Of a DNA stretch of 40,747 nt, positions 1,040 to 39,923 are shown in pieces. Every line of letters starts with the position of its first letter. Position 1 is the first letter of the stretch. Position numbers and translations under genes: made by a program. Source of the DNA: Halorubrum coriense DSM 10284 (lineage in GTDB: Archaea; Halobacteriota; Halobacteria; Halobacteriales; Haloferacaceae); contig NZ_AOJL01000057.1 of NCBI RefSeq assembly GCF_000337035.1, positions 1-40,747 of the forward strand, written 5' to 3'. The notes under the pieces are model-generated. The model saw only the letters and a program-made list of their open reading frames with translations, ran no database searches and was not told where the DNA came from.

Positions 1040-2011
1040 CTACATATACCCGAGGTCGCGCAGCCGCTCCATCAGGTCCTCTTTGTCTTGAGCACGCCCG
1101 GCACGCTCGGTCGTTCCCTCAAGATCCTGAAGCCACGCGGGCTCCTCGGTCGTCTTGTCCGTACTCACTTCACTCCCGAGCGAGCGGAACCCGGCGAAGT
1201 ACTTCGGCGAGATCGGAACGTCCTCTTGGGTGACCCCCTCGGGGAGGTCGTCGTCGGCCTGTGGGACGTACCCCTCCTCCGGGAACGCCTCGATGGTGTC
1301 AGGAACGACAAAGTTCCAGAAGGCATCCCAGACATCCGCCTCAGCAAACTGGAGGATGGGTTGAATACGGTCGTGCGGCGGGAACAGATCCGGATCATGC
1401 CGCGGCGAGAAGAACGTCTCGTCGGCACGGGCCTCCTGTTCGTCCCACCGCACACCCGAAATCACGCCGTCAATATCGTACTCTTCGAGGGCGTCGTTGA
1501 GCGCGACCGTCTTGAGCAGGTGGTTGCCGACGTACGTATCTAACAGGAACGGGAACGAATCCTCCTCGAACTCGAGGATCTCTCGGATATGGTGCTGGTT
1601 GTGCTCAGAGAGCGCGTCGACGGGGATGTCATCGCCCGGTTCGAGCCCATGCGCATCAACGTAGTCACCCACGTCCTCGTTGCGTGCGTACACCAGCTCA
1701 ATGTCCCACTCGTCGGCCCAGTGTTCGACGAAGTCGGTAATCGAATCGAAGTGCTGGAAGTGGTCAATGAACACCGCAGTGGGCTTCTCGTAGTCGTACT
1801 TTTCGGCAACCTGATTAATGAAGTACAGCGTCAGCGTGGAGTCTTTGCCGCCCGTCCACATCACCGCCGGATTGTCGTACTCCTCTAACCCCTTGCGGGT
1901 AACCTCGACCGCCTTCTCGAGTTTGTGCTGGATCGACGGGTAGTCGTCCGGGTCTTCGCCTTCGCCGTCAGTGTAGTCGACGTCGACGCTCGCCGGGAAG
2001 TTATCGCTCAT
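1040..2011 (-). CDS. PAPS reductase-family protein (adenine nucleotide alpha hydrolase/PP-loop fold)
   Basis: The 323-residue protein has the PP-loop TGGKDS at residues 53-58, which binds the ATP/adenylyl phosphates in PAPS reductase and ATP sulfurylase CysD-like enzymes, followed by a Rossmann-like region (AVFIDHFQHFDSI). An acidic, poorly conserved C-terminus ends in RLRDLGYM. It lacks an obvious C-terminal ECGIH-type catalytic Cys motif, so a true assimilatory reductase is unlikely. Many haloarchaeal paralogues of this family sit in surface-glycan clusters and may handle sulfur-activated nucleotides. It is transcribed divergently from the phosphodiesterase gene at 2147, with about 135 bp between them, which suggests a shared regulatory region. 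The start is ATG with a CATATTAG box about 29 nt upstream. Confidence 0.78.
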   Translation of the reverse strand: MSDNFPASVDVDYTDGEGEDPDDYPSIQHKLEKAVEVTRKGLEEYDNPAVMWTGGKDSTLTLYFINQVAEKYDYEKPTAVFIDHFQHFDSITDFVEHWADEWDIELVYARNEDVGDYVDAHGLEPGDDIPVDALSEHNQHHIREILEFEEDSFPFLLDTYVGNHLLKTVALNDALEEYDIDGVISGVRWDEQEARADETFFSPRHDPDLFPPHDRIQPILQFAEADVWDAFWNFVVPDTIEAFPEEGYVPQADDDLPEGVTQEDVPISPKYFAGFRSLGSEVSTDKTTEEPAWLQDLEGTTERAGRAQDKEDLMERLRDLGYM

Positions 2012-2035
2012 ACATCGAAATTGTCTGTGAACGAA

Positions 2036-2043
2036 CTAATATG
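2036..2043 (-). promoter_or_regulatory. TATA-like box of the PAPS reductase-family gene
   Basis: CATATTAG, read on the minus strand, is centred about 29 nt before the ATG at 2011. That is the spacing expected for a leaderless haloarchaeal transcript. Confidence 0.4.
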
Positions 2044-2146
2044 GCTTCTGAATTTCGTCTCCGGAATTCGACATGCGTTAACACGCATCGTACCAGTAGA
2101 CACGTTAGAACACAACCGATATGTCGGCAGATACACATCCACAGGT

Positions 2147-3490
2147 ATGGGCCTGTTCGATCGGTTACGCGGCGATGACGATGAGCGTGTTGTGTTCCTT
2201 GGGATTGATGGTGTTCCATTGAATCTCGTCCAGGATCATCCTGACGTCTTCGAGAACCTAACTGACATCAAAAACACTGGCTCAGGCGGCCGCTTAGAGA
2301 GCATTGTGCCACCCGAGTCTAGTGCGTGTTGGCCGAGTCTCACCACCGGCGTGAATCCTGGCGCCACCGGTGTGTACGGCTTTCAAGACCGCGAGGTTGA
2401 CTCGTATGAGACGTACGTCCCCCTTGGCCGCCACGTGAAGGCGACACGGTTGTGGGATCGTGTTACTGACGCCGGCCGGGATGCGACCGTACTCAACGTG
2501 CCTGTCACGTTCCCGCCATCAACCCGGATCCAGCGGATGGCGTCTGGCTTTCTCTCCCCTGATCTGGAGTCGGCCACCAGCGATGAGTCACTTCGCCGCA
2601 CACTCGAGGAGTTCGACTACCAGACCGACGTCAACGCGAAACTCGGCCATGACGACGATAAAACCGAGTTTATCGAGAACGCCCACGCTACCCTCGACGC
2701 TCGGTACGAGGCGTTTGTCCACTACCTCGAGCAGGATGACTGGGATCTCTTCTTCGGTGTCTTCATGAGTACTGACCGGGTGAACCACTTCCTGTTCGGT
2801 GACTACGCGACGGACGGCGAGTACAACGCAGAGTTCCTCGAGTTCTACCGAACCCTCGACGAATACATCGGCGAGATCCGTGACTCACTCGACGACAACA
2901 CCACGCTGATTGTCGCTTCCGATCACGGGTTCACCCACCTGGAGTGGGAAGTGAACTGTAACCAGTTCCTCGCCGAGGAAGGGTGGCTCTCGTATGAAGC
3001 CGATGACCATGATGCCCTTACCGATATCGGCGAAGACGCCCGAGCGTACTCGCTGATCCCCGGCCGCTTCTATCTCAACCTCGAGGGGCGCGAGCCAAAC
3101 GGGGTTGTGTCCCAGTCGGAGTACGAGGCGACACGCGAGGAGCTCATCGCCGATCTCGAGTCGCTCACTGGTCCGGGCGGACAGCAGGTGTGTAAGCGAA
3201 TCGTGAAAGGTGAAGACGCCTTTGATGGCCCGCACGACGACATCGCGCCCGATCTCGTCGTCATCCCCGCAAATGGCTTCGATTTGAAGTCTGGGTTCTC
3301 CGGGAAAGAAGCGGTGTTTACCGAGGGGCCGCGCAACGGGATGCACAAGTTCGAGAACTCGCTGCTGTACACCACAGAACCCGGCCTCAACTTGGATGGC
3401 GCGAACCTGTTTGATGTGACGCCAACTATTCTGGACCTTCTGGATGTCGATACAGACGTCACGTTCGACGGGACGAGCCTACTGGGGTAA
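2147..3490 (+). CDS. alkaline phosphatase superfamily protein (type I phosphodiesterase/nucleotide pyrophosphatase)
   Basis: The 447-residue protein starts at ATG (MGLFDRLRGD); the open frame extends further upstream but that part has no family-like sequence. Expected metal-site elements are visible: FLGIDG at 18-22 (Asp21), the nucleophile region SACWPSLTTG at 59-68, STDRVNHFLFG at 208-218 (Asp210, His214), and ASDHGFTH at 257-264 (Asp259, His260). It probably hydrolyses phosphate or phosphodiester bonds in nucleotide-sugar or glycan metabolism. A paralogue about 88% identical in the stretch I compared lies at 9463-10558 in the same direction, but that copy has lost the first 87 residues. 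No signal peptide is visible, so it is likely cytoplasmic. Confidence 0.85.
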   Translation: MGLFDRLRGDDDERVVFLGIDGVPLNLVQDHPDVFENLTDIKNTGSGGRLESIVPPESSACWPSLTTGVNPGATGVYGFQDREVDSYETYVPLGRHVKATRLWDRVTDAGRDATVLNVPVTFPPSTRIQRMASGFLSPDLESATSDESLRRTLEEFDYQTDVNAKLGHDDDKTEFIENAHATLDARYEAFVHYLEQDDWDLFFGVFMSTDRVNHFLFGDYATDGEYNAEFLEFYRTLDEYIGEIRDSLDDNTTLIVASDHGFTHLEWEVNCNQFLAEEGWLSYEADDHDALTDIGEDARAYSLIPGRFYLNLEGREPNGVVSQSEYEATREELIADLESLTGPGGQQVCKRIVKGEDAFDGPHDDIAPDLVVIPANGFDLKSGFSGKEAVFTEGPRNGMHKFENSLLYTTEPGLNLDGANLFDVTPTILDLLDVDTDVTFDGTSLLG

Positions 3491-5247: not shown

Positions 5248-8200
5248 TCAGAAGCTGACAAACGGAAGTATTGCTTTCGCGTTTTCATCGTAGGAAAGCG
5301 CTTCAGCTTGACTCACACCCACGGGAGTGATCAAGTCGATCACCCGTGGAGCGTTGCCGGAGGCCCCCTCACGGGCTCCACCGAAAGTGAACGCCCCAGG
5401 ATTCCCCACTTGTACGTCGCGGAATGAGCCGAAGTTCTCAGAGCCAACTACTGGAATAACTTCTGTGTTTGTGAGATCAATATCCAGACTGTCTTTGTCC
5501 ACGATTAGTGTAACCGTGTTGGCAGTGCGATCGACCGCAATTTCCGGGGTGCCGAGGTTTGACCCCTCGGCGTTTATGACATCCCGCTTGAAGAAGTCAG
5601 ATGCCCTCCCGAGGCCGCTAGCAGCGACTCGGTAATGCCACTCGTCGGCGAACTCTACGTTTACTCCCAAGTCGTCGCGTGAAGTTTTGCTTCCGTTAGC
5701 GAGTGACGGGTCGCGGAGCCATAGGGTGAAGATCTGCGGCGAGAAGTACTCTACGTCGAAGCCATTCTGTAAGCTTTCAACCTCAAAGGTGAACTCATAA
5801 CTACTATCCGACTCGGTCAGCGTGAACTGCCGCAGGTCGAAGGCGCCATCGTTGAACGCGCTGTCAGTCGGGTACGTGTATGAACCGGGGCCGTAATCAT
5901 CACCCACCGGATCGTCGAACTCAGTCTCGATGCCACTCGGGGGATCAGCGGGTCGGATACGCATCGCAGTCCCGCCGCTGGCTCCCATCGAGATAGCGAC
6001 TGTGTCACCTGCTGAGACGCGATAATTGCTAATGTCGATTTCTGTCGGATTACGCTCCACGCCGGTCCCGGCGGCGTCGGCATACTCCGTCACCATCCAC
6101 CCATTCTCCCGGCTGGTGAGGAATTCTTCGAGCGAGACTGTCAACTCTCGCGCGTTCTCGTCAGTCATCGCACCGAGGAACCATTCCTCACCACTGCGTC
6201 TAGCGACGATAATATACTCCCCGATGGCGGCGTCTACGACAGTCGTCTCGTCCCAGTTCGTGGGGACCTGTTTAATGAATTCAAACTCTGGTTCGGTATC
6301 GTAATTTTCTTTTTCAGTGTCCTTGCTCTCGAAGTCCGTGTACGCCGCAGGGAACGGGGGAGCACTACCCTGCTCGGTGACACCGATGGTGTTGAGATTG
6401 AGACCCCCAACATCGTCTGCGCCGAGTTTTATCGCTACCGTGTTGTCACCGGCTTCGAGATCGACCGAAACCGTGTGAATAGCCCAGTCATCCCAGTACT
6501 CAGTGAATGCCGGTGTGAGTTGTTGTTCGGATCCGCTGACCTCCAGTGTGAGTTCCGGATTCCCGTTCCTGGTAACTACGTCCCGGTTATCCTCTTCATC
6601 ACTCGCGTATCGAAGGTGGAGATCGTAGGTTCCAGCCTCAGCGACATTCTTTATCCTGAACGCTACTGTCGCGCCTCGTGGTTCGCGGTTGGGATCTATG
6701 GGGACATAATGAGCACCGTAGGCATTGCGCCACTGATCAGCGGTGATCATACCGTTTAGGGCTCCGGCCTGTGCCTGAACAAACTCGCCGATCTCGAACG
6801 TGTTATCGATATACGCTTCGATGCGATCGGCAGCCATCTGGAGACCGGCTAGATACGCCGGATACATCGCTAACTGCTTCGCTCGAGTTGTCTGGATCTG
6901 CCCACCTTCGTCATCGTTGAATGTAATGTCAAAGATACCGGGCTGGTAACTCGTGGGGCCGGCGAGCATCCGGGTGAACGGAAGGGTAACGTGATGATCT
7001 CGTCCGACGTCCGCACCGAGCGCGCCGAACCCGTCATACTCCTGTGCTTTCACGACTTCCCGCGCAGCGACGTTGGGGTACGTCCGGATTTCACCAGTTG
7101 GTTTGATCCCCTCGTGGATCTCCAACATCTGGCGGTTCGCAGCGGCGGCTTGGATAACACTCCGGTGGTGGTTCACCGCACGCTGAGAGTGGTGGGTATA
7201 CGTCGCCTCCTCATCGGCTTCTTCATCGTACAAGCCCGGGTCGTTGACATAGCCGTTCTTGATCGACCGAATCCCAGCCGCCTCGTACTCTGCGAATATG
7301 TTTTTATTTTCGATCTCGTCTTCGTAGTTGCCGAGATTCCCCGACGTCTCATTGTGCATGGTCATCTCGACAGCGTTCGAGAGATCGGCTCCGAACTGAG
7401 TGACCTCGTTCACATCAAAGTCCGGATACGAGTCATCAACACCAAGCTCGAGCGCTGCTCCATCGGCACCGGCACCATAGGTACTCCACCCCTCATTCCA
7501 TCCTTCCGCGAGAACACTGTCGATGCCGTGCTCGCTCGCGAATCGCATATACCGTTTCATCCGCTCCGTCCGCGCGCCGTGGATGTACGAAGCAGGATTG
7601 TTACCATTGCCGGATATCTCACCATCGCTCTTATACTCCCAGTTGGCGCTTCCAGCGATCATCGTCCACCAGATACCGACGTACTTCCGACCGTCTTCAA
7701 GCCACGACGTGTCACCACCACTCGGGAACGCTGCCTTGTCGAGGGGGTCTGCTAGCAAGGGGATGAGTTGAGACTCTACAAGGTCTCCCGGCGTGTCCCC
7801 GATCTGGAGCGTTCGCCATGGGGTCACGTGGGGAGCCGAAGCCTTCACTGATGACCCGTCTGGAAGCGGCGCGAGCTCCGCCGCAAATCGTGGACTCCCT
7901 GCGCTAGATTGAGACGCCAGCGACAGGGACGCGTAATCGGTGAGATTCGATTCGTGAACGCTCAGATACGGCCCATCACCGCCAGTATCGATCGTCAGCG
8001 GCGTGTGTGCACCGCGTTGCACTGAGTTCCCAAGCGGCCGCGTAGATCCGGCTCCTGACGGAATGTCACTCAACGAGCTCGTCTCGTACTCCTGTTCGAA
8101 CCTCGGATTTACCCACTCGTTTTCGATCCACCACGCGTCATAATCACCGGCGAAATTAAACTCCGTGTTCTCTGAGTTAATAATGAAGTCCCCAAATTCG

Positions 8201-9150
8201 TCACCCAACAGCACGCGGAACCCAAGCCCGCTGTTGAAGACACGCATCTCAAGGCTCGCTGTGCGGCCGTCTTCTGTTGTCTCCTCGTCTGTTATCTCTT
8301 GTAGATTGAGCGTGAGATAATTGTACTCCTCCTCGACAGAGGCGAAATCGCCCCACTCTGGTGTCCACGATTCTGTTGCAGTCCCACGCTCACCGCCAAT
8401 AACAGCAATATCTGGTCCACTGCCGCTAATGTCTGTCCCGAACGCCTCTTGATCATTGAAGTTGAACCCAATTGGCGACGACTCCAGGTACGTCGTTCCT
8501 TCATAGCTGACAGTATAGCTGGGGACTCCCGAAGAGACCTCGACAGACATATCGATAGATCCGTCCGGGGAACTGACCGTCTGCGTATCGAGATCTCCTT
8601 CAATCGCGTTCGCATCGTCCGGCTTCTCGACATCAGCGTGAATGGTCACCGGAAGCGTCTGCTCGGCCGTAACGGATTCTGTATCGATATAGACGCCAAT
8701 TGATTGGCTTTCGCCGACAGCTAACGTGGGCACGTCGCCCTCGCTGTTACGAAGCCGCTCATCCTGATTGCCTCCTCGATAAAAGTAGATGGAATCTGAA
8801 TCAAAGGGTGTGTCACTGAAATCGAGAGTCCCCCAGGTGTAGATCGTCTGTGTTCCTTGATTTGTGATCTCAAAGACGTCATCAAACACGTACACGGAGT
8901 CGGGGCCTAACCCTTGACCACCAGAATCTGTGTCACTGAAATCAAGTCCAAGCTGACCGGTATCTGTTACTGTTGCGTATTCACCGTTCGGCCCGCTAGA
9001 CGGTGCCAATCTGAGGAATGCATCCGCATCCCCCGCAACTTGAACACTAACATCTCGATTTGCTGTGACACTACTGAATGCACCAGTCCCGACGGCACTA
9101 GCGCCAGCGGCGCCGCCGAGCAACATGAGGAGTTGGCGTCGGTTCACCAT
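5248..9150 (-). CDS. exported glycoside hydrolase family 97 enzyme with DUF1102-like N-terminal domain
   Basis: The 1300-residue multidomain protein has a Tat signal (MVNRRQLLML, residues 1-30), a DUF1102-like beta domain (about 31-175) closely matching the beta-helix protein at 38316, then a GH97 N-terminal sandwich (about 190-470) and catalytic barrel (about 480-780). GH97 hallmarks are EGWNEGW at 549-555, HNETSGN at 599-605, KNGYV at 631-635, HEGIKPTG at 679-686 with RTYPN at 689-693, and REVVKAQEY at 697-705. The Glu pattern (549, 680, 698/704) matches the inverting alpha-glucosidase type (SusB-like) rather than the retaining Asp type. A CBM35-like sandwich (about 790-935) is inserted before the GH97 C-domain (about 945-1065), and a glucodextranase-C/DOMON-like module (about 1070-1290) ends the protein. 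It probably cleaves alpha-glucans or alpha-glucosides outside the cell. Confidence 0.88.
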   Translation of the reverse strand: MVNRRQLLMLLGGAAGASAVGTGAFSSVTANRDVSVQVAGDADAFLRLAPSSGPNGEYATVTDTGQLGLDFSDTDSGGQGLGPDSVYVFDDVFEITNQGTQTIYTWGTLDFSDTPFDSDSIYFYRGGNQDERLRNSEGDVPTLAVGESQSIGVYIDTESVTAEQTLPVTIHADVEKPDDANAIEGDLDTQTVSSPDGSIDMSVEVSSGVPSYTVSYEGTTYLESSPIGFNFNDQEAFGTDISGSGPDIAVIGGERGTATESWTPEWGDFASVEEEYNYLTLNLQEITDEETTEDGRTASLEMRVFNSGLGFRVLLGDEFGDFIINSENTEFNFAGDYDAWWIENEWVNPRFEQEYETSSLSDIPSGAGSTRPLGNSVQRGAHTPLTIDTGGDGPYLSVHESNLTDYASLSLASQSSAGSPRFAAELAPLPDGSSVKASAPHVTPWRTLQIGDTPGDLVESQLIPLLADPLDKAAFPSGGDTSWLEDGRKYVGIWWTMIAGSANWEYKSDGEISGNGNNPASYIHGARTERMKRYMRFASEHGIDSVLAEGWNEGWSTYGAGADGAALELGVDDSYPDFDVNEVTQFGADLSNAVEMTMHNETSGNLGNYEDEIENKNIFAEYEAAGIRSIKNGYVNDPGLYDEEADEEATYTHHSQRAVNHHRSVIQAAAANRQMLEIHEGIKPTGEIRTYPNVAAREVVKAQEYDGFGALGADVGRDHHVTLPFTRMLAGPTSYQPGIFDITFNDDEGGQIQTTRAKQLAMYPAYLAGLQMAADRIEAYIDNTFEIGEFVQAQAGALNGMITADQWRNAYGAHYVPIDPNREPRGATVAFRIKNVAEAGTYDLHLRYASDEEDNRDVVTRNGNPELTLEVSGSEQQLTPAFTEYWDDWAIHTVSVDLEAGDNTVAIKLGADDVGGLNLNTIGVTEQGSAPPFPAAYTDFESKDTEKENYDTEPEFEFIKQVPTNWDETTVVDAAIGEYIIVARRSGEEWFLGAMTDENARELTVSLEEFLTSRENGWMVTEYADAAGTGVERNPTEIDISNYRVSAGDTVAISMGASGGTAMRIRPADPPSGIETEFDDPVGDDYGPGSYTYPTDSAFNDGAFDLRQFTLTESDSSYEFTFEVESLQNGFDVEYFSPQIFTLWLRDPSLANGSKTSRDDLGVNVEFADEWHYRVAASGLGRASDFFKRDVINAEGSNLGTPEIAVDRTANTVTLIVDKDSLDIDLTNTEVIPVVGSENFGSFRDVQVGNPGAFTFGGAREGASGNAPRVIDLITPVGVSQAEALSYDENAKAILPFVSF

Positions 9151-9164
9151 GGTTGTTCAACCGA

Positions 9165-9210
9165 TGCCCAATGACGGAATCGAACCGTCGGATCGTGGCT
9201 GAGAACCACA
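9165..9210 (-). other. tRNA 3'-half-like sequence (possible attachment site or tRNA remnant)
   Basis: On the minus strand an anticodon-arm-like stem-loop (TGTGG-TTCTCAG-CCACG, 9210-9194) is followed by a 4-nt variable loop, a perfect T-arm (GACGG-TTCGATT-CCGTC, 9189-9173) and ATTGGGC plus A as an acceptor 3' strand. The anticodon would read CTC (Glu). No D-arm or matching 5' acceptor strand (GCCCAAT) precedes it, so this is not a functional tRNA. Haloarchaeal integrases often use tRNA 3' halves as att sites. It lies directly upstream of the GH97 start codon, so it could also be a chance hairpin in that leader. Confidence 0.35.
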
Positions 9211-9364
9211 GACCACACCTGTGTGGGTGATACGCCATCGTGAAAATGTAACTGACTACACATCTGAGATGATAACTGAGCTATTTTTCCTCTCGTATCG
9301 CGTAAAGAGCCTTACTTATATGATCTTTGAAACTATATCATGTAGAACCCGGTGGGTTGACTAT

Positions 9365-10558
9365 AAGTTCGAGAACTCGCTGCTGTACACCACAAAACCC
9401 GACCTTGATCTGAACGATGCGAACCTCTTCGATGTGACGCCGACGCTTCTCGACCTGATGGATGTCGACACCTATGAGACGTACGTCCCGCTCGGCCGCC
9501 ACGTGAAGGCGACGCGGCTATGGGATCGTGTTACTGACGCCGGCCGGGATGCGACCGTACTCAACGTCCCTGTCACGTTCCCGCCGTCGAGCTGGATCCA
9601 GCGGATGGCCTCCGGCTTCCTCTCGCCGGACCTGAAGTCCGCGGCGAGCGACGAGTCGCTTCGCGAGACGCTCGACGGCTTCGACTACCGCATCGATGTC
9701 AACGCAAAACCCGGTCACGACGACGACAAAACAGAATTCATCGAGAACGCTCACGCAACACTGGACGCCCGGTATGAGACGTTCTCGCACTATCTTGAGC
9801 AAGACGATTGGGACCTCTTCTTCGGCGTCTTCATGAGTACGGATCGGGTGAACCACTTCCTGTTTGGCGACTACGCAACGGACGGTGAGTACGCCGATGA
9901 GTTCCTCGAGTTCTACCGGACGCTTTATCAGTACATCGGCGAGGTCCGTAACTCCCTCGACGACAACACGACGCTGATCGTCGCCTCCGATCATGGGTTC
10001 ACCCACCTAGAATGGGAAGTGAACTGTAACCAGTTCCTCGCTGAGGAGGGGTGGCTCTCCTACGAAACTGCGGATCACGACTCCCTCACAGACATCGACA
10101 ACGAGGCGCGCGCATACTCACTTATTCCCGGGCGCTTTTATCTCAACATGGAGGGTCGCGAACGCAATGGTGTTGTGCCCCAGTCCGAGTACGAAGCGAC
10201 ACGCGAGGAGCTCATCGCCGATCTCGAGTCGCTTACTGGTCCGGACGGCCAGCAGGTGTGTAAGCGAATCGTGAAAGGTGAAGACGCCTTTGACGGCCCA
10301 CACGACGATATTGCGCCTGACCTTGTCGTCATCCCTGCGAACGGCTTCGATCTGAAGTCTGGATTCTCGAGCAAAGAGCCAGTGCTCACCAAGGGCCCGC
10401 GCAACGGGATACACAAGTTCGAAAACTCACTGTTGTACACCACGGAACCGGGCCTCAATTTACGTGAGGCCAACCTCTTCGATGTGACGCCAACTATTCT
10501 GGATCTCCTCGACGTCGACGCTGATGCCGCCTTCGACGGCGCAAGCCTTCTCGGATGA
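9365..10558 (+). pseudogene. chimeric, N-terminally deleted alkaline phosphatase-superfamily paralogue
   Basis: From 9365 the frame reads KFENSLLYTT...NLFDVTPTLLDLMDVDT, which is the C-terminal tail of one phosphodiesterase copy. It then jumps at 9463 to YETYVPLGRHVKATRLWDRV, residue 88 of the intact gene at 2147, and continues to the normal C-terminus. The first 87 residues, including the metal-binding Asp of FLGIDG and the nucleophile region WPSLTTG, are missing, so it should be catalytically dead. The frame stays open from 9221, but residues before 9365 have no family similarity. The join at V-D-(S/T)-Y-E-T-Y suggests recombination between tandem paralogues through short homology. Confidence 0.8.
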
Positions 10559-26107: not shown

Positions 26108-27349
26108 TCACATACTCCCGGCAGCTCGGCGAAGCCCGGCACCAACTACTAACGTAATTAGGATTGCTTGTACCGCATAGAGCGGTACGCTGTCCTCTGA
26201 ACTGTCGGGTGAGGCAGGATCCTCGTTGGGCTCAATTGTCCCATTTGGCTCGCCTGCTTCATCAGCAGTTCCATTCCCATCTGTCGAATCATCGTTTCCT
26301 CCGCTAGTGGAACCGTCGGTGTCAGATGAAGAGTCCGTCTCTCCATCCGTTGAGCTGTCGTCTGTATCTGAATCCGGATTTATGCTGTCTCCGGAAGCAT
26401 CGCTGTTGTCTTCATCGGCGGTGTCGGTTTCATTGGACTGGTCACCACTTGTGTCTCCACTATTACTGCTTCCGTCACTTCCGTCGCCGCCATCGGTTCC
26501 GTCACTTCCGTCGCCGCCATCGGTTCCGTCACTTCCGTCGCCACCATCGGTTCCGTTTTCAGAGCCGCCATCTCCTCCACTCTCTCCACCTGAATTATCA
26601 TCAGTCTGTTCAACGGTTATTGAATAAGCCTCGCTCAATCCGATTAGAGAAGGACGTCCATTGATGTCTTCACCCCCACGAATCCTGACCTGTGTCTGGT
26701 ACTCTCCCTGATTAAGCGATGATATGTTTCCTTCATACTTGTTGTCCGCTGTCTCAGTCAATGTGATGTTTTGACGCTTATCACTATTCCAAACGGTCAG
26801 GGTTACGGATTCTATTGATGTTGGCTCTATTGTTGAGAGTGAAACCTCAACAGGCACGCTCTCAGATGGATGTATAGCTGTATTTTCTGGCGCTGACCCA
26901 TTAATATCCAGAGAATCTACCTCATGTGAGGCAATCACAACTGGTAACACCGACTTAATTAGCCCTTCATCGGTGTCTAGGATGTTAACGCCATAGCTAC
27001 CAGGTGATTCTACACTGTTTGCAAATTCATACGGTGTTTCTGCTCCAGTCGTACTCTTCGAGGAAATTAACGACTCATCTGAGTCGCGGAACTGTATTTC
27101 ATATGATTTGTTCTCTTGATCCGGAACTGTCGCTGTTCCAGTAAGTGGCTCATCTGGAGTGATTACTGCTGTTTTATCGACCTCTAACTCACCATCAATG
27201 AAACCATCAGACACGGTCTGAGACGGAATTGAGACTGTAGAATCCGAGTCTAGTGTAAAATCACTAGTTGATTGACCCCCAACACCCACACTTCCAATGG
27301 TTACTCCAAGACAGAGTAGAACGACAAAGAGGGCTGATCGGCGGTTCAT
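26108..27349 (-). CDS. exported surface protein with Gly/Asp/Ser-rich repeats and C-terminal TM anchor
   Basis: It starts at ATG 27349 (MNRRSALFVVLLCLGVTIGSV), giving 413 residues; the open frame extends ten codons further. A signal peptide is followed by about 220 residues of beta-type ectodomain with many N-x-S/T sites, then a 120-residue linker of S, D, G, T and N with three copies of a 27-bp unit coding GDGSDGTDG (about 26481-26565). It ends with one TM helix (LYAVQAILITLVVGAGL) and basic residues. This is a typical haloarchaeal cell-surface protein with a glycosylated spacer. It is divergent from 27469, a protein with the same overall plan, so the two may form a pair. Confidence 0.72.
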   Translation of the reverse strand: MNRRSALFVVLLCLGVTIGSVGVGGQSTSDFTLDSDSTVSIPSQTVSDGFIDGELEVDKTAVITPDEPLTGTATVPDQENKSYEIQFRDSDESLISSKSTTGAETPYEFANSVESPGSYGVNILDTDEGLIKSVLPVVIASHEVDSLDINGSAPENTAIHPSESVPVEVSLSTIEPTSIESVTLTVWNSDKRQNITLTETADNKYEGNISSLNQGEYQTQVRIRGGEDINGRPSLIGLSEAYSITVEQTDDNSGGESGGDGGSENGTDGGDGSDGTDGGDGSDGTDGGDGSDGSSNSGDTSGDQSNETDTADEDNSDASGDSINPDSDTDDSSTDGETDSSSDTDGSTSGGNDDSTDGNGTADEAGEPNGTIEPNEDPASPDSSEDSVPLYAVQAILITLVVGAGLRRAAGSM

Positions 27350-27438
27350 AGGAGATGTTGGCTTCCAACGCGGTATCACTTTTTTGGTTCTATCACTGTA
27401 TTCTTGACACCTCTGCTCGCAGTCCTCTTGTAAGAAAG

Positions 27439-27446
27439 ATATAAAG
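27439..27446 (+). promoter_or_regulatory. TATA box of the large surface-protein gene
   Basis: GATATAAA is centred about 26 nt before ATG 27469, a good leaderless promoter match. Confidence 0.6.
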
Positions 27447-27468
27447 CGGATGCCAAAAATTAGTATCT

Positions 27469-30003
27469 ATGACACGCTCAGCGAGACAGGTTACACTCGC
27501 TATTCTATTCAGCCTCGTCATGATCGGATCGATGATGGGGCCGTTTGTTGGAGGAGCACTAGCTTCAGTGGATGAGTCCCACTCATCAACGAGCGCGATC
27601 GAACCCACAGGCCAACCAGTTGAATCAAACATTGGAACAATCAATATTACGGATGACCTAGCCGTTTGGGAACGGGCGCCTCTTCGCCCTGTAACTGTTG
27701 ATCGACAAACCGGACCCGATAACCCAGCAACCGCAATCAATAGCCCAGAAGTTACCCTTGAGGGGGTCAATATAGGGACCTCAAAAGAAGTCATTTTCGA
27801 GGAAGGTGATGATGTCAGGTTCAATCTTGACGGCACATCAGACCTCCCCGAGAATGAATTTAGGGTACTTGTCACGCGTATTGACGCGAATCAAGACACG
27901 ACAGAAGTATTCCTTAATTCACAGAATGTGAGTGTTGAGGAAGTTGAGCGTGCGTTCAGAGATGTTAGTGGATACGGCGAGTTCGAGTCAACTGTCCAAG
28001 ATCAAAATGAAGTTCGGTTTGGGACTGTTCGTGACTTCTTTAACGAGACTGACCGATTCGAGACGTTCGCCAAATCGTTCGCAGAAAATCAAACGCTAAC
28101 CACTGAGCGATTTAAGGATGCACTCACATCAGATGAGTTCCTAAAACTCACGAGCTTTAAAACAGTTACCGCTGGAGATATCCGTCCTGATGGTACGCAA
28201 GAAGCCACTGTCAATCTTGATGAGTCGGGTACTTACATCCTAATCGGACATATCGGTGACGAAGTGTATGAGGAAGGCGATGAACGACCTCGGTTCAACA
28301 ATACAACAGCACTCGGAGTTGATGCTGTCACGGCTCAAGAGGGTCCCTCCACGATCAACTTGGACAGCACACAGATTGAACCTGGTGAGAATGTCTCGTT
28401 GACCGCAACAGCTGGGCTTAGCTCTAATGAGAATATCTCACATGCTGTCGCCGTTTTCGATAACAGTACATTCAGTGACAGCAAAACTGAAATTTTAGTC
28501 AGTGGTGGATTCTCCCGTGATGTGCGTGCTGAAGACGTGACTGTCGGATCATCAATCGCAGAGATTCAGGGAGTCGCCAACGTACAACCGAATGTTCAGA
28601 TCTCTGGGACTAATATCGCTTCTGAAGAGTTCTCGGGCACGGTGAGTACAAAAGACCAAGCAGACAGTTTCTTTGACATTCGCAATGCGTTGGTTGATGG
28701 ATTTGACATCCGCGACCAAGCCGGGGACGCAGCCACGTTCAATACCATCGGAACTACGACACTAAACGCCTCGTTGACCGCTATTGGTGACGCCTCTGGT
28801 GAAGAAACAATCAAAGTTGAAACACTGGAGGGGTGGCAGACTGGTGAGTACGCGGTTCTCCACATCGCGGCTGATCAAGAAGACGGGACCATCAGTACGA
28901 GCCGTACTGGTATCCAAATTAACGACAGTACAGGTGGAGGTGACGACAGTGATGACGGTGGCGACGACGACAGTGATGACGGTGGCGACGACGACAGTGA
29001 CGATGGTGGCGACGACGACAGTGACGACGGTGGCGACGACGACAGTGACGACGGTGGCGATGACGACTCGGCTGACGTCCAGCCGCCCGAACCGCCGGCT
29101 GACGTAAACATCGAAGCAGAAGAGACGGCAGATCTCGTCGCCGACGACGAGACGGACACTGCGACGGCCACGTTCAGCGAGGAGAACGCTGTCGAGTCGG
29201 TCAGCTTCGACTTCCGTGCTTCCGGCGGCGTTAACGCTCGAACGCTAAGTCAAGAACCAGCCGAGACTGGACCTGCTCCAGGTTCCTCAGCGTCTGTCGC
29301 CCAGATCACCGTGGGCGATATGCTCAGAGACTCCGAGGCGACAATCCGCAAGCGCGTCACGCGAGAGCGTCTCAGTAACATCAGTGCTGACGCTGAGGAC
29401 CTCACCGCCTTCCGCTTCGCGGACGGAGAGTGGCAGGCCCTCGACACTGAGGTCGCCAATGAGAGCGACCAACGAGTCGTCGTTGAGTTCCAGACGCCCG
29501 GTTTCTCGTACTTCGCCGTGAGCGCGACCGGAGAACCGACCGCCGCGATCGACGCGCCGAGTGAGGTTGAAGCCGGCGACGAAGTCACTCTTGATGCTTC
29601 CGGCTCCGAGAACGAGTTCGGCGAAATCGTCTCGTACAACTGGTCTGTCGACGGCGAGAGTCTCAGCGGCGAGACCGCCACAGCAACCCTCGACGAAGCC
29701 GGTGACGTCAGCGTTGAGCTGACCGTCGAGAACGACGCCGGCGAGACGGACACCGCGTCTGCGACGATCACCGTCGCGCAGGTCGACGACGGCGACAGCA
29801 GCGACGGCGGTGACGACGGCGACGGCAGCGACGACGGCGACGGCAGCGACGGCAGCGACGGCAGCGACGGCAGCGACGGCGGTGATGGTGGTGATGGTGG
29901 TGATGGCGATGATGGTGGAAATCTCGGACTTGCCCTCGTCATCGTCCTCCTTGCCCTCCTGATCGCTGGTGGCTTCATCTACTATCTCAACGTTCAGGAG
30001 TAG
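27469..30003 (+). CDS. large exported surface protein with repeat linker, PKD domain and C-terminal TM anchor
   Basis: This is an 844-residue protein with a signal peptide (about 1-33) and a long N-terminal ectodomain with N-x-S/T sites. A hinge at about 492-536 follows, made of an 8-residue repeat GGDDDSDD (24-bp unit, 28940-29065). Next is a region resembling the PGF-pre-PGF domain (VESVSFDFRASGGVNARTL ... TPGFSYFAVSA), a PKD domain (AAIDAPSEVEAGDEVTLDASGSENEFGEIVSYNWSVDG), a second GDGSDG-rich linker (29788-29915), and a TM helix (LGLALVIVLLALLIAGGFIYYL). The part before the hinge is visibly richer in A+T than the part after it. The neighbouring ABC transporter operon starts 34 bp downstream. 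Confidence 0.8.
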   Translation: MTRSARQVTLAILFSLVMIGSMMGPFVGGALASVDESHSSTSAIEPTGQPVESNIGTINITDDLAVWERAPLRPVTVDRQTGPDNPATAINSPEVTLEGVNIGTSKEVIFEEGDDVRFNLDGTSDLPENEFRVLVTRIDANQDTTEVFLNSQNVSVEEVERAFRDVSGYGEFESTVQDQNEVRFGTVRDFFNETDRFETFAKSFAENQTLTTERFKDALTSDEFLKLTSFKTVTAGDIRPDGTQEATVNLDESGTYILIGHIGDEVYEEGDERPRFNNTTALGVDAVTAQEGPSTINLDSTQIEPGENVSLTATAGLSSNENISHAVAVFDNSTFSDSKTEILVSGGFSRDVRAEDVTVGSSIAEIQGVANVQPNVQISGTNIASEEFSGTVSTKDQADSFFDIRNALVDGFDIRDQAGDAATFNTIGTTTLNASLTAIGDASGEETIKVETLEGWQTGEYAVLHIAADQEDGTISTSRTGIQINDSTGGGDDSDDGGDDDSDDGGDDDSDDGGDDDSDDGGDDDSDDGGDDDSADVQPPEPPADVNIEAEETADLVADDETDTATATFSEENAVESVSFDFRASGGVNARTLSQEPAETGPAPGSSASVAQITVGDMLRDSEATIRKRVTRERLSNISADAEDLTAFRFADGEWQALDTEVANESDQRVVVEFQTPGFSYFAVSATGEPTAAIDAPSEVEAGDEVTLDASGSENEFGEIVSYNWSVDGESLSGETATATLDEAGDVSVELTVENDAGETDTASATITVAQVDDGDSSDGGDDGDGSDDGDGSDGSDGSDGSDGGDGGDGGDGDDGGNLGLALVIVLLALLIAGGFIYYLNVQE
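28940..29065 (+). repeat. 24-bp tandem repeat coding GGDDDSDD
   Basis: About five copies of a unit close to GACGACAGTGACGACGGTGGC with minor GAT/GAC changes. The repeat sits at the base-composition switch of the surface-protein gene and could have promoted domain exchange or length change. Confidence 0.7.
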
Positions 30004-35716: not shown

Positions 35717-36526
35717 TTACTCAGTTTCGTCACTAAAGGCCTCACCAGCGTTCAAAACGGCTTCCTCTGAGACGAAGCCATCGCTACCTGCCTGTGCCCG
35801 AGTGAACACTCCAATCCCCTCAATGCCGATCCCGATGATCTCGTCCCCGTTATTTTCCCATCCAAAATCCTTCGGACCAAGTTCTGCTCCAGTAGTCTGT
35901 TGACCCGATTTAATTGATCCAACAGATCCACGCCCGCTCTTGCCAGATCCACGAATATAGGCTTTTGCGCTGATGTTTTTATCGTCGTCTATGTGTATTA
36001 TAACATTTCCATTCTTCATGAACTCAACTTGAATTTTCGAAGTGCTTTCAGACGCACTCTCACACCTGAATTTGAACACTCGTTGTTTATTCACCGTCGT
36101 GCCACCGGCGTCACCTGTGAAAGCGAGTGACAGTGAGGTCCTCGCCGTCTCATCTGTCTCACACCTGACTGCGACGAACGCTTGCTCACCCGGGGTAAGA
36201 TCGACCTGCTTCTTTTCACCAACTTCGAGTTGATCACCAACTGTTACCTGATCAACTGCTTCGCCTCGGCCGTTAAGACTTATTGTCAGATTCAGATCGC
36301 TGGTGAATTTATTTGTAATTTGTACGACATTTGTCTCCGTGGCACTCTTTACGACTCTGTCTTCGTTTGTTGTTAGGTTTCTTAACCCCAAGTACGCCTT
36401 TTTATCTTTCACGACATTCACTTCTACGTCGCGCTCGGCCTCGACGCCGCTGAACGCGCTGGTGCCGACGCTCATCGCACCGGAGCTTGCGCCGCCGAGC
36501 AGCAAGATGAGGGTTCGTCGTTTCAT
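35717..36526 (-). CDS. exported DUF1102-like protein
   Basis: The 269-residue protein starts with a Tat-like signal (MKRRTLILLLGGASSGAMSVG) and continues AFSGVEAERDVEVNVVKDKKAYLGL, the characteristic SipW/DUF1102-like entry. The domain continues as a beta-rich region to about residue 155 (VTVGDQLEVGEKKQVDLTPGEQAFVAVRCETDE). The C-terminal part (about 160-269) is distinct and Gly/Ser-rich with a second beta-like segment (ISAKAYIRGSGKSG). The family is exported and may form surface filaments or coats in the manner of TasA/camelysin-like proteins; that link is inference. Convergent with the small membrane gene. Confidence 0.75.
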   Translation of the reverse strand: MKRRTLILLLGGASSGAMSVGTSAFSGVEAERDVEVNVVKDKKAYLGLRNLTTNEDRVVKSATETNVVQITNKFTSDLNLTISLNGRGEAVDQVTVGDQLEVGEKKQVDLTPGEQAFVAVRCETDETARTSLSLAFTGDAGGTTVNKQRVFKFRCESASESTSKIQVEFMKNGNVIIHIDDDKNISAKAYIRGSGKSGRGSVGSIKSGQQTTGAELGPKDFGWENNGDEIIGIGIEGIGVFTRAQAGSDGFVSEEAVLNAGEAFSDETE

Positions 36527-36628: not shown

Positions 36629-37210
36629 TTATGTGAGTCCCGGCGGCTCGTCAGGTTCACCAACTTTCATTTTCGCGGTGTAGTACTTGTGTGTTATCGC
36701 AGAGAACGTGAATGCGACGACGATAGCGGTCATCCACGCCATATTGGGGAGGAGAACGAATGGCCACGCGTCGAGCCATACTGCGCCGGCGAGCGCGAGA
36801 GCGACGCCCGAGAGCCCGAGATAGTAGGTGCTCCACGGTATTTCTCGTCCCTCGACGATGTCCATGTAGAGGTCGACGTCTTGGAGTGCGGACGTTGGCT
36901 CGATGATGCCGCGGTCCTTGTTGAACTCGACGACTCCCGCATCGTCCATCTTCGGGAGATGAGACTGCTGGAGCGCTGTGTACACGCGCTTCCGCTCCGG
37001 CCCCGTGATCTCGGTCGTTTCGATTCCGTTCTCCCACGCCGCGATCTGCTCGGCCATATCGCCAATCCTGAGCGTGTCCTGATCCTCACGTTTCAGCAGA
37101 TGGACCGCGAACCGCCGCCGTTGGTTCGCCAGTACGTCGAACAGTTCGTCTTCGGACACCTCCCCCGCTGGTTCCGATTTCTCTTCGTCGAACTGCTGTA
37201 CCGACGCCAT
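36629..37210 (-). CDS. DUF7344-type winged-helix membrane protein
   Basis: I start at ATG 37210 (MASVQQFDEEK), giving 193 residues; ATG 37225 would lie upstream of the transcription start expected from the ATTTATGT box at 37238-37245. The N-terminal part (EDELFDVLANQRRRFAVHLLKR ... LRIGDMAEQIAAWENG ... VYTALQQSHLPKMDDAGVVEFNKDRGIIE) is a winged helix typical of DUF7344 haloarchaeal regulators. Two TM helices follow (STYYLGLSGVALALAGAVWLD and FVLLPNMAWMTAIVVAFTFSAI). It lies between DUF1102-like genes and may regulate them. Confidence 0.8.
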   Translation of the reverse strand: MASVQQFDEEKSEPAGEVSEDELFDVLANQRRRFAVHLLKREDQDTLRIGDMAEQIAAWENGIETTEITGPERKRVYTALQQSHLPKMDDAGVVEFNKDRGIIEPTSALQDVDLYMDIVEGREIPWSTYYLGLSGVALALAGAVWLDAWPFVLLPNMAWMTAIVVAFTFSAITHKYYTAKMKVGEPDEPPGLT

Positions 37211-37237
37211 TTCTGTCTGACACATATGAGCATGCCA

Positions 37238-37665: not shown

Positions 37666-38298
37666 ATGTCAAACCGACGAAAATTTATTGCTGGACTAGG
37701 GGCGCTGGCTACAGGGAGTGCGGCCGCTGTAGGAACCGGCGCATTCACCAGTGTGACGGCGGAACGCACGGTTAACGTACAGGTCGCTGGAGATGCTAGC
37801 GCGTACCTCGGGCTGGCACCAGTCAGTAATAGTCCAAATTCGGACTACGTTGTAGTGAATAATCAAGAGGTATCGTTCGACTTCTCCAGTGGCGACGGCG
37901 ACTCAAGCGGCGGAGGCTCTGTTGACGGGGATGGTTTCAACCCTGACGCGACGACGCGGATCAATGACTTACTACGCGTTACCAACCAAGGGAATCAATC
38001 GGCAAACTTCTGGGTCAATATTGAGAATCTCGGCGCTGGAAGCGACTTTCTCACGATTGAAGCGAGCGGCTATCCCACATACAGCCCTAATATGGGAAGC
38101 AAAACAGGCGCGAGCACACAACTCGCTTATGATGGTGGGAATGATTCCGGAGTTCACCCGTACAAACTAGACACAGGGGAAGACATCTACCTACACTTAG
38201 TCGTTGATGCTACTGCCCGGGGTGGTCAGTCACCAAACAATTTCAGTGGGAATGCCACGTTCGTTGCCGCGAGTGACGACTCACAGCCCCCACTCTAA
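37666..38298 (+). CDS. exported DUF1102-like protein, first gene of a two-gene operon
   Basis: Starting at ATG 37666 the protein (210 residues) begins MSNRRKFIAGLGALATGSAA, a Tat signal, then AFTSVTAERTVNVQVAGDASAYLGL, the shared DUF1102-like entry. A beta-type domain with VTNQGNQSANFWVNI (also seen in the GH97 and beta-helix proteins as ITNQGTQ) follows, and VDATARGGQSPNNFSGNATF closes it. An upstream frame extension (37621) has no signal and is unlikely. The next gene starts 17 nt after the stop with a GAGGT Shine-Dalgarno at 38304-38308, so they are one operon. Confidence 0.82.
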   Translation: MSNRRKFIAGLGALATGSAAAVGTGAFTSVTAERTVNVQVAGDASAYLGLAPVSNSPNSDYVVVNNQEVSFDFSSGDGDSSGGGSVDGDGFNPDATTRINDLLRVTNQGNQSANFWVNIENLGAGSDFLTIEASGYPTYSPNMGSKTGASTQLAYDGGNDSGVHPYKLDTGEDIYLHLVVDATARGGQSPNNFSGNATFVAASDDSQPPL

Positions 38299-38315: not shown

Positions 38316-39923
38316 ATGCAACGACGCAAATTCGTTCTCGGACTCGGATCGCTCACCGCCGCCGGGGCGGCCGCAGTAGGCTCTGGCGCGTTCACAACCG
38401 CAGAAGCCACTCGTGATGTCTCCGTTGAGGTCGCGGACGACAGTACTGGCTACCTTGCGATACAACAGTCCGGCGGACCGAACAGCAAGTTTGCTTCGCA
38501 GGCTGGCAACGGTACCATCGGACTGAACTTCTCTGGAAGTGGCAACAGCGGAGGCGGCGTAGGTACCAACTCGGTGTATAATTTCGATAACGTCTTCTCC
38601 ATTACGAATCAGGGCACTCAAGCGGTCTACGTTTGGGTGAACTTCTCTGGATCGACGTTTGACGACTCCAGTCTCTATCTCTACCCGAACGGGTCGCGAG
38701 ATACGAAGCTTAACGATGGGAGTAACAGTGTTCTCGCGCTATCTCCTGGAGAAGAAGCTAATATTGGAGTCCACGTCGACACAGAGAGCATTACCGCGGA
38801 CGGCTCGCCGACAATGACGATCAAAGCCGACGTGGATAAGCCCGGGACAAGTGAGTCCGTTGGATCAGACGGAGACCAGACGTTGGTCGTCAGCCAGAAT
38901 CCTGACCAAGGTGATTTCTCTTCGATTCAGGCAGCGATCGACGCTTCTGACGGAACAACGATTTATGTTGAACCGGGCCGTTATGAGGAAGACCTCAGTA
39001 TCTCGAAAGATATTACACTGGTAGGCGCACAAGGTGGAGTACCAGCATTCGATCCGAGCAGTGGCACTACCCGAAGCGCTGATGACCTGAGTGGCGAGAC
39101 GGTTCTTGACAGTTCTGGTAGCTTCGATTATGAGGGTGAGGGACCAGCAGCACTCAATATTGGGGGCGGTGCGAGCATCACTGTTGATGGCTTTACGTTA
39201 GCCAACAATGGATACTTCGTAGATAGCGATCACTGGGGAAACCTAGTGATGAAAAACAGTATCCTAACAAACTCCGGCACCGCAGCCAACGGTCATATTG
39301 ATCTTAGTGGATACAAAGGCGGAGTCGGAAGTCTAACCTTTAGAAACAACTACATCACCGAAAATAGTACTTCTAATGGGATCCGAATCCGTAATAGTAC
39401 GGACAGCCCAGCTGTGTTGACAATCGAGGACAACCTTTGGGAGAACAACCGTGCTTGGGCAATGAATCTTAATTACTCTCGTGGGTCCATTAAGAACAAC
39501 ACATTTAGGAACACTACCGAATTCAGTGGAACCACGCTTGAGGGACAGGATGGTGAAAAATACACTTATAAGCAGTGGGGAATTATTGTCGCCGCTGATG
39601 ATAATGACTTGACTATCCAAAACAACACGTTTGACGCGCTGAATGGCCCAGGTGTTAATATCTACGGGAGCTTCACAGGAACGGTGAATATCGATAATAA
39701 TGCGTTCAACGTGATCAAGGATGATTCAATCCTACTGATCGATCGACAGACTCCAGATCAGTATCCGGCTCAGCAGGTCAATATCAACATTACAGACAAT
39801 TCATTTACCATTCCCGAAGATGAGCTAGCCATTAATAACGAAATTCCAAACCAGATCGCAATTGATGTAGTTGGGAGTAGTCTTAGCTTACGTGATGTTT
39901 CCGAAGGTGTGAACCTCAACTAA
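38316..39923 (+). CDS. exported DUF1102-like protein with right-handed beta-helix domain
   Basis: The 535-residue protein has a Tat signal (MQRRKFVLGLGSLTAAGAAAV), a DUF1102-like domain (about 30-175) that closely follows the GH97 protein's domain (SVYNFDNVFSITNQGTQAVYVW versus SVYVFDDVFEITNQGTQTIYTW), and then a parallel beta-helix/pectin-lyase fold (about 190-520). The helix shows regular NN/NxxF coils: FSSIQAAIDASDGTTIYVEPGRYEE, ITVDGFTLANNGY, LTIEDNLWENNRAW, LTIQNNTFDALNG, VNIDNNAF. Such folds often bind or cleave polysaccharides; no catalytic residues can be assigned. It is probably displayed on the cell surface. Confidence 0.85.
   Translation: MQRRKFVLGLGSLTAAGAAAVGSGAFTTAEATRDVSVEVADDSTGYLAIQQSGGPNSKFASQAGNGTIGLNFSGSGNSGGGVGTNSVYNFDNVFSITNQGTQAVYVWVNFSGSTFDDSSLYLYPNGSRDTKLNDGSNSVLALSPGEEANIGVHVDTESITADGSPTMTIKADVDKPGTSESVGSDGDQTLVVSQNPDQGDFSSIQAAIDASDGTTIYVEPGRYEEDLSISKDITLVGAQGGVPAFDPSSGTTRSADDLSGETVLDSSGSFDYEGEGPAALNIGGGASITVDGFTLANNGYFVDSDHWGNLVMKNSILTNSGTAANGHIDLSGYKGGVGSLTFRNNYITENSTSNGIRIRNSTDSPAVLTIEDNLWENNRAWAMNLNYSRGSIKNNTFRNTTEFSGTTLEGQDGEKYTYKQWGIIVAADDNDLTIQNNTFDALNGPGVNIYGSFTGTVNIDNNAFNVIKDDSILLIDRQTPDQYPAQQVNINITDNSFTIPEDELAINNEIPNQIAIDVVGSSLSLRDVSEGVNLN

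Follow-up and report, generated by a model that had tools for sequence, protein, structure and literature searches.

Glycoside hydrolases of family 97 (GH97) are represented structurally by SusB (2d73/2jka), the Pseudoalteromonas K8 enzyme (5hq4) and the glucodextranase of Flavobacterium johnsoniae (8wg0), which all have a GH97_N domain, a catalytic barrel and a GH97_C domain. In mitochondria, tRNA structures mark the cuts between coding genes, an arrangement called tRNA punctuation. In the haloarchaeon Haloferax volcanii, a tRNA-like element (t-element) reduced to an acceptor stem and a T-arm stands directly before the 5S rRNA and is processed by tRNase Z, and t-elements set on either side of CRISPR RNAs undergo processing in vivo (PMC4326828, PMC4946936). 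Haloarchaea also make fimbriae that depend on the twin-arginine translocation (Tat) pathway, the Tafi (PMC12687288, which cites Galeva et al. 2025), with the families TafA, TafC and TafE; the structure of the Tafi pilus of Natrinema sp. J7-2 is 9p0a. Here we describe a gene of Halorubrum coriense DSM 10284 (5248..9150, minus strand) that encodes a GH97 enzyme headed by a Tafi-pilin-like domain and that is preceded by a tRNA-like element (9165..9228, minus strand). All coordinates refer to the whole stretch of contig NZ_AOJL01000057.1 that was analysed, 40,747 nt (the window). We think it fairly probable that the product is a secreted alpha-glucosidase or glucodextranase displayed through the pilin-like domain, and that its tRNA-like leader is cut by tRNase Z.

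The gene is an intact open reading frame of 1300 aa, all of whose domains are given here on the minus strand. It opens with a Tat-type signal peptide, MVNRRQLLMLLGGAAGASAVGTGAFSS (aa 1-30; 9061..9150), recognisable by its RR motif of Tat type and its hydrophobic stretch, and alignable with other Taf signals. The Tafi-pilin-like domain (aa 31-180; 8611..9060) was identified by Pfam, NCBIfam, a sequence match in the PDB and its predicted fold; the Pfam model DUF1102 covers aa 56-158 with 29.6 bits (cut-off 22.2). There follow GH97_N (aa 192-469; 7744..8577; Pfam, 4e-55), the catalytic barrel Glyco_hydro_97 (aa 480-791; 6778..7713; 1e-76), a module of CBM35 fold (about aa 794-931; 6358..6771), GH97_C (aa 965-1065; 5956..6258; 3e-25) and a glucodextranase C-terminal module (Glucodextran_C, aa 1077-1292; 5275..5922; 2e-48, 165 bits, above the cut-off). 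By sequence, CBM35 and CBM6 stay below threshold in Pfam (E 0.02-0.05; CBM35 14.3 bits for a cut-off of 28). In an AlphaFold model of aa 793-1300 (mean predicted local distance difference test score, pLDDT, of 83), the module matches the CBM35 structure 2w1w (Foldseek E 1.8e-6, TMt 0.76), GH97_C superposes on that of solved GH97s at about 1.5 Å, and the glucodextranase 1ug9 is also matched. The original prediction, made from the letters of the sequence, had proposed a Tat signal, a DUF1102-like domain, a GH97 glycosidase with a CBM35-like module between barrel and C-domain, and a glucodextranase-C-like end; given the Pfam domains and the structural matches, this parse is correct, although the sequence model for the CBM35-like module falls below its cut-off. 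Neither of the two outcomes named beforehand as refuting it occurred: a GH97 that HMMs fail to recover, or an N-terminal domain without relation to DUF1102/SipW-like proteins.

The five glutamates of the SusB active site (E194, E439, E508, E526 and E532) align with E352, in GH97_N, and with E601, E680, E698 and E704, in the barrel; in SusB their roles are catalytic or, as for the equivalent of E352, in Ca2+ binding. Among solved GH97s, the nearest are inverting alpha-glucosidases and the glucodextranase of F. johnsoniae. With all five residues kept, the enzyme should be an inverting, exo-acting alpha-glucosidase or a glucodextranase, presumably Ca2+-dependent, and alpha-1,6-glucan is one possible candidate substrate. 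The CBM35 and the glucodextranase C-module would hold the alpha-glucan.

Compared with SusB, 5hq4 and 8wg0, the window enzyme has three additions: the N-terminal pilin-like domain, the CBM35 between barrel and C-domain, and the glucodextranase C-module. To place them we mapped its segments on 95 haloarchaeal GH97 reading frames, some of which are one gene taken from two collections (of the class's 391 genomes, 114 contain GH97). In 87 of the 95 frames the CBM35 segment separates the barrel from the C-domain, and 74 include the glucodextranase module. Barrel, CBM35, GH97_C and glucodextranase C-module is thus the normal haloarchaeal order, found identically from GH97_N onwards in other enzymes such as that of Halorubrum distributum (L058/L098), which lack the Taf domain and many of which have an extra stretch ahead of the glucodextranase module. 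We therefore rejected the proposal of an undescribed GH97 order, save for its N-terminal domain, which is indeed rare. A literature search on GH97, haloarchaea and CBM35 returned nothing on point.

Only one other complete frame among the 95 has a Taf-type N-terminal domain (L115, in genome G124, of another genus). The H. coriense genome encodes a second Taf-GH97 on contig C68 (L074:16354 on), broken only by assembly joins made of a single N and a repeated overlap, and whose C-terminal part is apparently at the start of contig C69. The end of C68 and the start of C69 (L074, L077) probably belong together. When the family's 170 genomes were searched with aa 2-470, the window and G124 alone yielded full-length fusions, and the broken copy of C68 was recovered as well. 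A tree built from 88 GH97 cores groups the three fusions in a single clade with maximal support (Shimodaira-Hasegawa-like approximate likelihood ratio test, SH-aLRT, 100) and separates them from the ordinary Halorubrum GH97s, which are about 55% identical to the window enzyme. The results fit one fusion event followed by transfer, in either direction.

The N-terminal domain has a single match in the PDB by phmmer, the 'Pilin' 9p0a (E 1e-10). The same structure is the closest to its predicted fold (Foldseek E 6.6e-4; VIA Z 9.3 over 129 residues). Next comes the bundling pilus of P. calidifontis, and the thread of S. acidocaldarius and FimA also score high. Other Ig-like beta-sandwiches turn up below Z 8, and we therefore put the weight on 9p0a, the P. 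calidifontis pilus and the sequence match. Like Tafi pilins, the enzyme has a Tat signal ending in GTGAFSSV.A.R.VSV followed by a beta-sandwich of DUF1102-like fold; unlike them, it continues with about 1100 aa of enzyme. The fold class, that of donor-strand beta-sandwich subunits, also includes TasA of Bacillus and the archaeal bundling pili and threads; in contrast to TasA, the enzyme does not match the model of the SipW-type signal domain (TIGR04088) in the NCBIfam scan. The core of the domain is mostly predicted with pLDDT of 80-95, and residues 11-43 with low confidence, consistent with a donor strand lacking its partner. In several genomes, Taf domains are found at the head of long proteins with beta-helix, SNase and lamin-tail, laminin-G or GLUG passengers. 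Because the same domain precedes such unrelated surface proteins, it looks like a general display module, of which GH97 would be one passenger among others.

These data suggest the following scenario for the protein. The Tat pathway would export the enzyme in folded form, and the pilin-like domain would keep it on display at the cell surface. After cleavage of the signal, the conserved N-terminal stretch would serve as donor strand, as in the subunit of Tat-fimbriae, and the domain would plug into a Taf filament or end it. The docking onto a filament that had been suggested for the DUF1102-like domain is plausible and gains from the match to the Tafi pilin 9p0a in both sequence and predicted fold, and from the presence of the domain at the head of other surface proteins; we infer, rather than observe, incorporation into the fibre.

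A resemblance to the 3' half of a tRNA was first spotted upstream of the C68 paralogue. The genome has four copies of the pattern GGTTCGATTCCGTCGCTGGGCA, when 2 mismatches at most are allowed. Each precedes a Taf gene at short distance and on the same strand; the four genes are the window GH97, its C68 paralogue, a Taf-beta-helix gene and a Taf gene of 823 aa. In the window, the element was delimited by this pattern, a covariance model and comparison with the paralogue. Its parts are a 5' acceptor strand ACCCAC (9223-9228), assigned by eye and by comparison with the paralogue and followed by a variable insert; a T-arm GACGG-TTCGATT-CCGTC (9173-9189), found by the pattern and the model; a 3' acceptor strand ATTGGGC (9166-9172); and a discriminator A (9165), all on the minus strand. 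The T-arm has the 5-bp stem and the 7-nt TTCGAYT loop that a haloarchaeal t-element requires. Four of the five inner acceptor pairs form with the strand chosen by eye, and the model picks a different 5' strand. Both blocks of the element are conserved in the diverged paralogue; the insert between them is not. The element scores 21.2 bits with model R1 (E 0.0014 in the window, 0.12 genome-wide). Between it and the AUG lies a small hairpin, GGUU-GAAC-AACC (9151..9162, minus strand), predicted to be at the 5' end of the mRNA after cleavage and not present at the paralogue. Folded singly, the leader is no more stable than shuffled sequences (z -0.5), and the case for the element thus rests on comparison and not on energy. 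Neither ARAGORN (window and paralogue loci) nor Rfam at gathering thresholds identified an intact tRNA in the leader, and a scan for Sigma-70-type promoters was uninformative, the host being an archaeon.

Such elements are widespread. A family-wide pattern search identified them before Taf genes, before genes of TasA/SipW type and directly before 5S rRNA. A covariance model built from 16 short elements, all of them non-5S, recovers the 5S elements that were excluded from its building and has matches, with E-values that are rough, in 206 of 292 haloarchaeal genomes and 64 of 77 genera. The acceptor and T-stem pairs covary (CCCAC/GTGGG, CCGAC/GTCGG, CCGAT/ATCGG, etc.). Among 101 distinct sequences, seven of the ten pairs changed on both sides, with 134 double-change cells observed against 34 in shuffles, and 99.9% of pair cells are paired, a percentage that leans upward because the alignment was fitted to the structure. 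The prediction made by RNAalifold itself on this alignment agrees with the structure.

We then analysed the context of 60 high-scoring matches, picked in order of rank, usually a single one from each genome, their context not being known when they were chosen. A 5S rRNA follows 28 of them and a reading frame 31; among these frames, 22 are relatives of Taf/TasA seeds (E<1e-3). Given a background of some 24 Taf/TasA genes in an assumed 3650 genes, the binomial p is about 2e-41, which is only a guide because the genomes are related. Several of the remaining frames seem to encode exported proteins. Over a larger set, of 64 downstream proteins, NCBIfam classes 28 as SipW-type and 15 as TafE-like. 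The elements resemble the 5S t-element in their acceptor stem and T-arm. They differ from it in preceding protein genes of Taf/TasA type, usually with a GC hairpin in between (a CCC..GGG hairpin within 24 nt of 42 of 67 non-5S elements, where shuffling predicts about 3) and an AUG at a distance of 15-26 nt (16 of the 22 Taf/TasA cases). One cluster of G124 has six consecutive Taf genes with an element at each. When genes are flanked by two elements, the gap from the stop codon to the next element is mostly below 100 nt (11 values, of which 2 come from wrongly chosen frames and are to be discounted). In genome G174, three tandem elements with strongly covarying stems precede small genes unlike Taf/TasA (L215/L183, G174:C4, about 26500-27750), so filament genes are not alone in having such elements. 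Our literature search, which did not extend to the 2012 survey mentioned below and the Tafi paper, returned no report linking tRNA-like elements to Taf/TasA genes, making the novelty of the leader provisional.

By analogy with the 5S t-element of H. volcanii, a transcript starting with such an element would probably be cut by tRNase Z just past the discriminator base, and the resulting mRNA would keep a short leader, of 14 nt for the GH97 gene. In tandem Taf/TasA clusters, the elements of the short intergenic gaps would act as tRNA-like punctuation, resulting in separate mRNAs. They differ from mitochondrial punctuation in being minimal elements instead of functional tRNAs, with a cleavage that is only predicted. 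The broader claim, that throughout the haloarchaea Taf/TasA transcripts start with, or are punctuated by, minimal tRNA-like elements and that cleavage there by tRNase Z sets mRNA 5' ends, and perhaps relative amounts, has in our view an even chance of being right.

Several observations weigh against display in a fibre with a processed leader. The N-terminal domain is far below the curated NCBIfam cut-offs (TafE 37.9 bits for 155, TafA 29 for 190, TafC 17 for 410) and is thus a relative of Taf pilins and not an orthologue, and no known pilus contains it. The window element is degenerate and weaker than most, having lost one inner acceptor pair and reaching an E-value of 0.12 genome-wide. The model found no element at the Taf-GH97 orthologue of G124, so an element is not essential to such a gene, and at the window gene and its paralogue the element leads the gene instead of separating tandem Taf genes. 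In a survey of H. volcanii tRNA-like elements published in 2012, other candidates were reportedly tried in vitro and showed no cleavage. The low scores, the standard haloarchaeal order of the rest of the protein and a distance of about 26 kb to the nearest Taf genes of the contig would suit an ordinary secreted GH97, whose Taf-like segment is a Tat signal with a spacer and never enters a filament. We hold this to be quite unlikely: the fusions retain the conserved N-terminal stretch and the whole folded pilin domain, the paralogue sits in a Taf cluster, and many unrelated surface proteins start with the same domain. Somewhat less unlikely, if still doubtful, is that the domain works as a monomer, anchoring the enzyme to the S-layer or to other proteins that start with a Taf domain, on the surface but outside any pilus. 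Most large Taf-headed proteins (beta-helix, SNase with lamin-tail) could be single surface proteins, and the nearest of the Taf models, TafE, carries the name of a fimbrial adapter, whereas the best fold matches are pilins that polymerise.

The leader raises a similar choice. An element acting intact, as a regulatory tRNA mimic affecting translation or mRNA stability, would explain the nearly constant distance to the start codon, and the CCC..GGG hairpin after most elements could mask a G-rich stretch resembling a Shine-Dalgarno sequence. Yet where an element of this kind precedes 5S rRNA, it is known to be processed by tRNase Z (PMC4326828), and separate mRNAs are the simplest outcome for elements between tandem genes, which leaves regulation by mimicry rather unlikely. 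That the sequences are remnants of elements integrating at tRNA genes (attachment sites), or of recombination between Taf genes, could be suggested by two Taf genes (C68, C63) whose homology starts near the T-arm and whose passengers differ. This is highly improbable, and we rejected the attachment-site origin, because both stems covary over the 101 sequences and the elements are spread over most genera and before 5S; moreover, the genome yielded no tRNA with this 3' end from which they could derive, and no integrases or direct repeats were seen at the loci, although no systematic search for them was made.

If true, the fusion of pilin and enzyme would provide a natural example of archaea degrading polysaccharides with enzymes displayed on fibres, as well as a ready-made scaffold for enzyme display in high salt. 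The leaders suggest a common RNA signal for the genes of extracellular fibres in most of the class. Its processing would link tRNA maturation to the expression of surface structures, with a tRNA-processing enzyme setting the mRNA 5' ends for pili and biofilm fibres, and for enzymes displayed on fibres, this GH97 among them.

Across the genome, 18 matches are TafE-like and 6 SipW/TasA-like. In the window, the Taf-type genes other than that of the enzyme lie at the other end of the contig: a Taf-like gene of 269 aa (35717..36526, minus strand; NCBIfam), a short pilin-like gene of Taf type (210 aa; 37666..38298, plus strand; 72 bits with the TafE model, cut-off 155), a protein of 535 aa with a Taf domain and a beta-helix (38316..39923, plus strand; Pfam, NCBIfam and sequence comparison) and another Taf/DUF1102 gene that runs off the contig end (40144..40747, plus strand). 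The Taf domains of the enzyme and of the beta-helix protein are 45% identical over 184 aa; they are clearly related, and the 'almost matching' of the original prediction was too strong. A DUF7344 gene adjoining these Taf genes (36629-37225, minus strand) is a candidate regulator of the cluster, and an open reading frame that resembles it by eye adjoins the Taf genes of C68 (L074:14670-15251, plus strand). Elsewhere in the genome, two Taf genes (L074:11306-12793 and L075:6606-9077, both minus strand) are nearly identical from the tRNA-like element through the end of the Taf domain and have unrelated passengers (beta-helix and GLUG), a sign of passenger or cassette exchange. At L077:7584-10445, a Taf domain is fused to thermonuclease-like SNase, DUF4350-like and lamin-tail domains, with relatives in several genomes; the product is a possible fibre-displayed nuclease. 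Finally, genes of the type I phosphodiesterase family (1925-3490 and 9221-10558, both plus strand) flank the GH97 region, and the listed start of the latter, which overlaps the GH97 leader on the opposite strand, was probably called too early.

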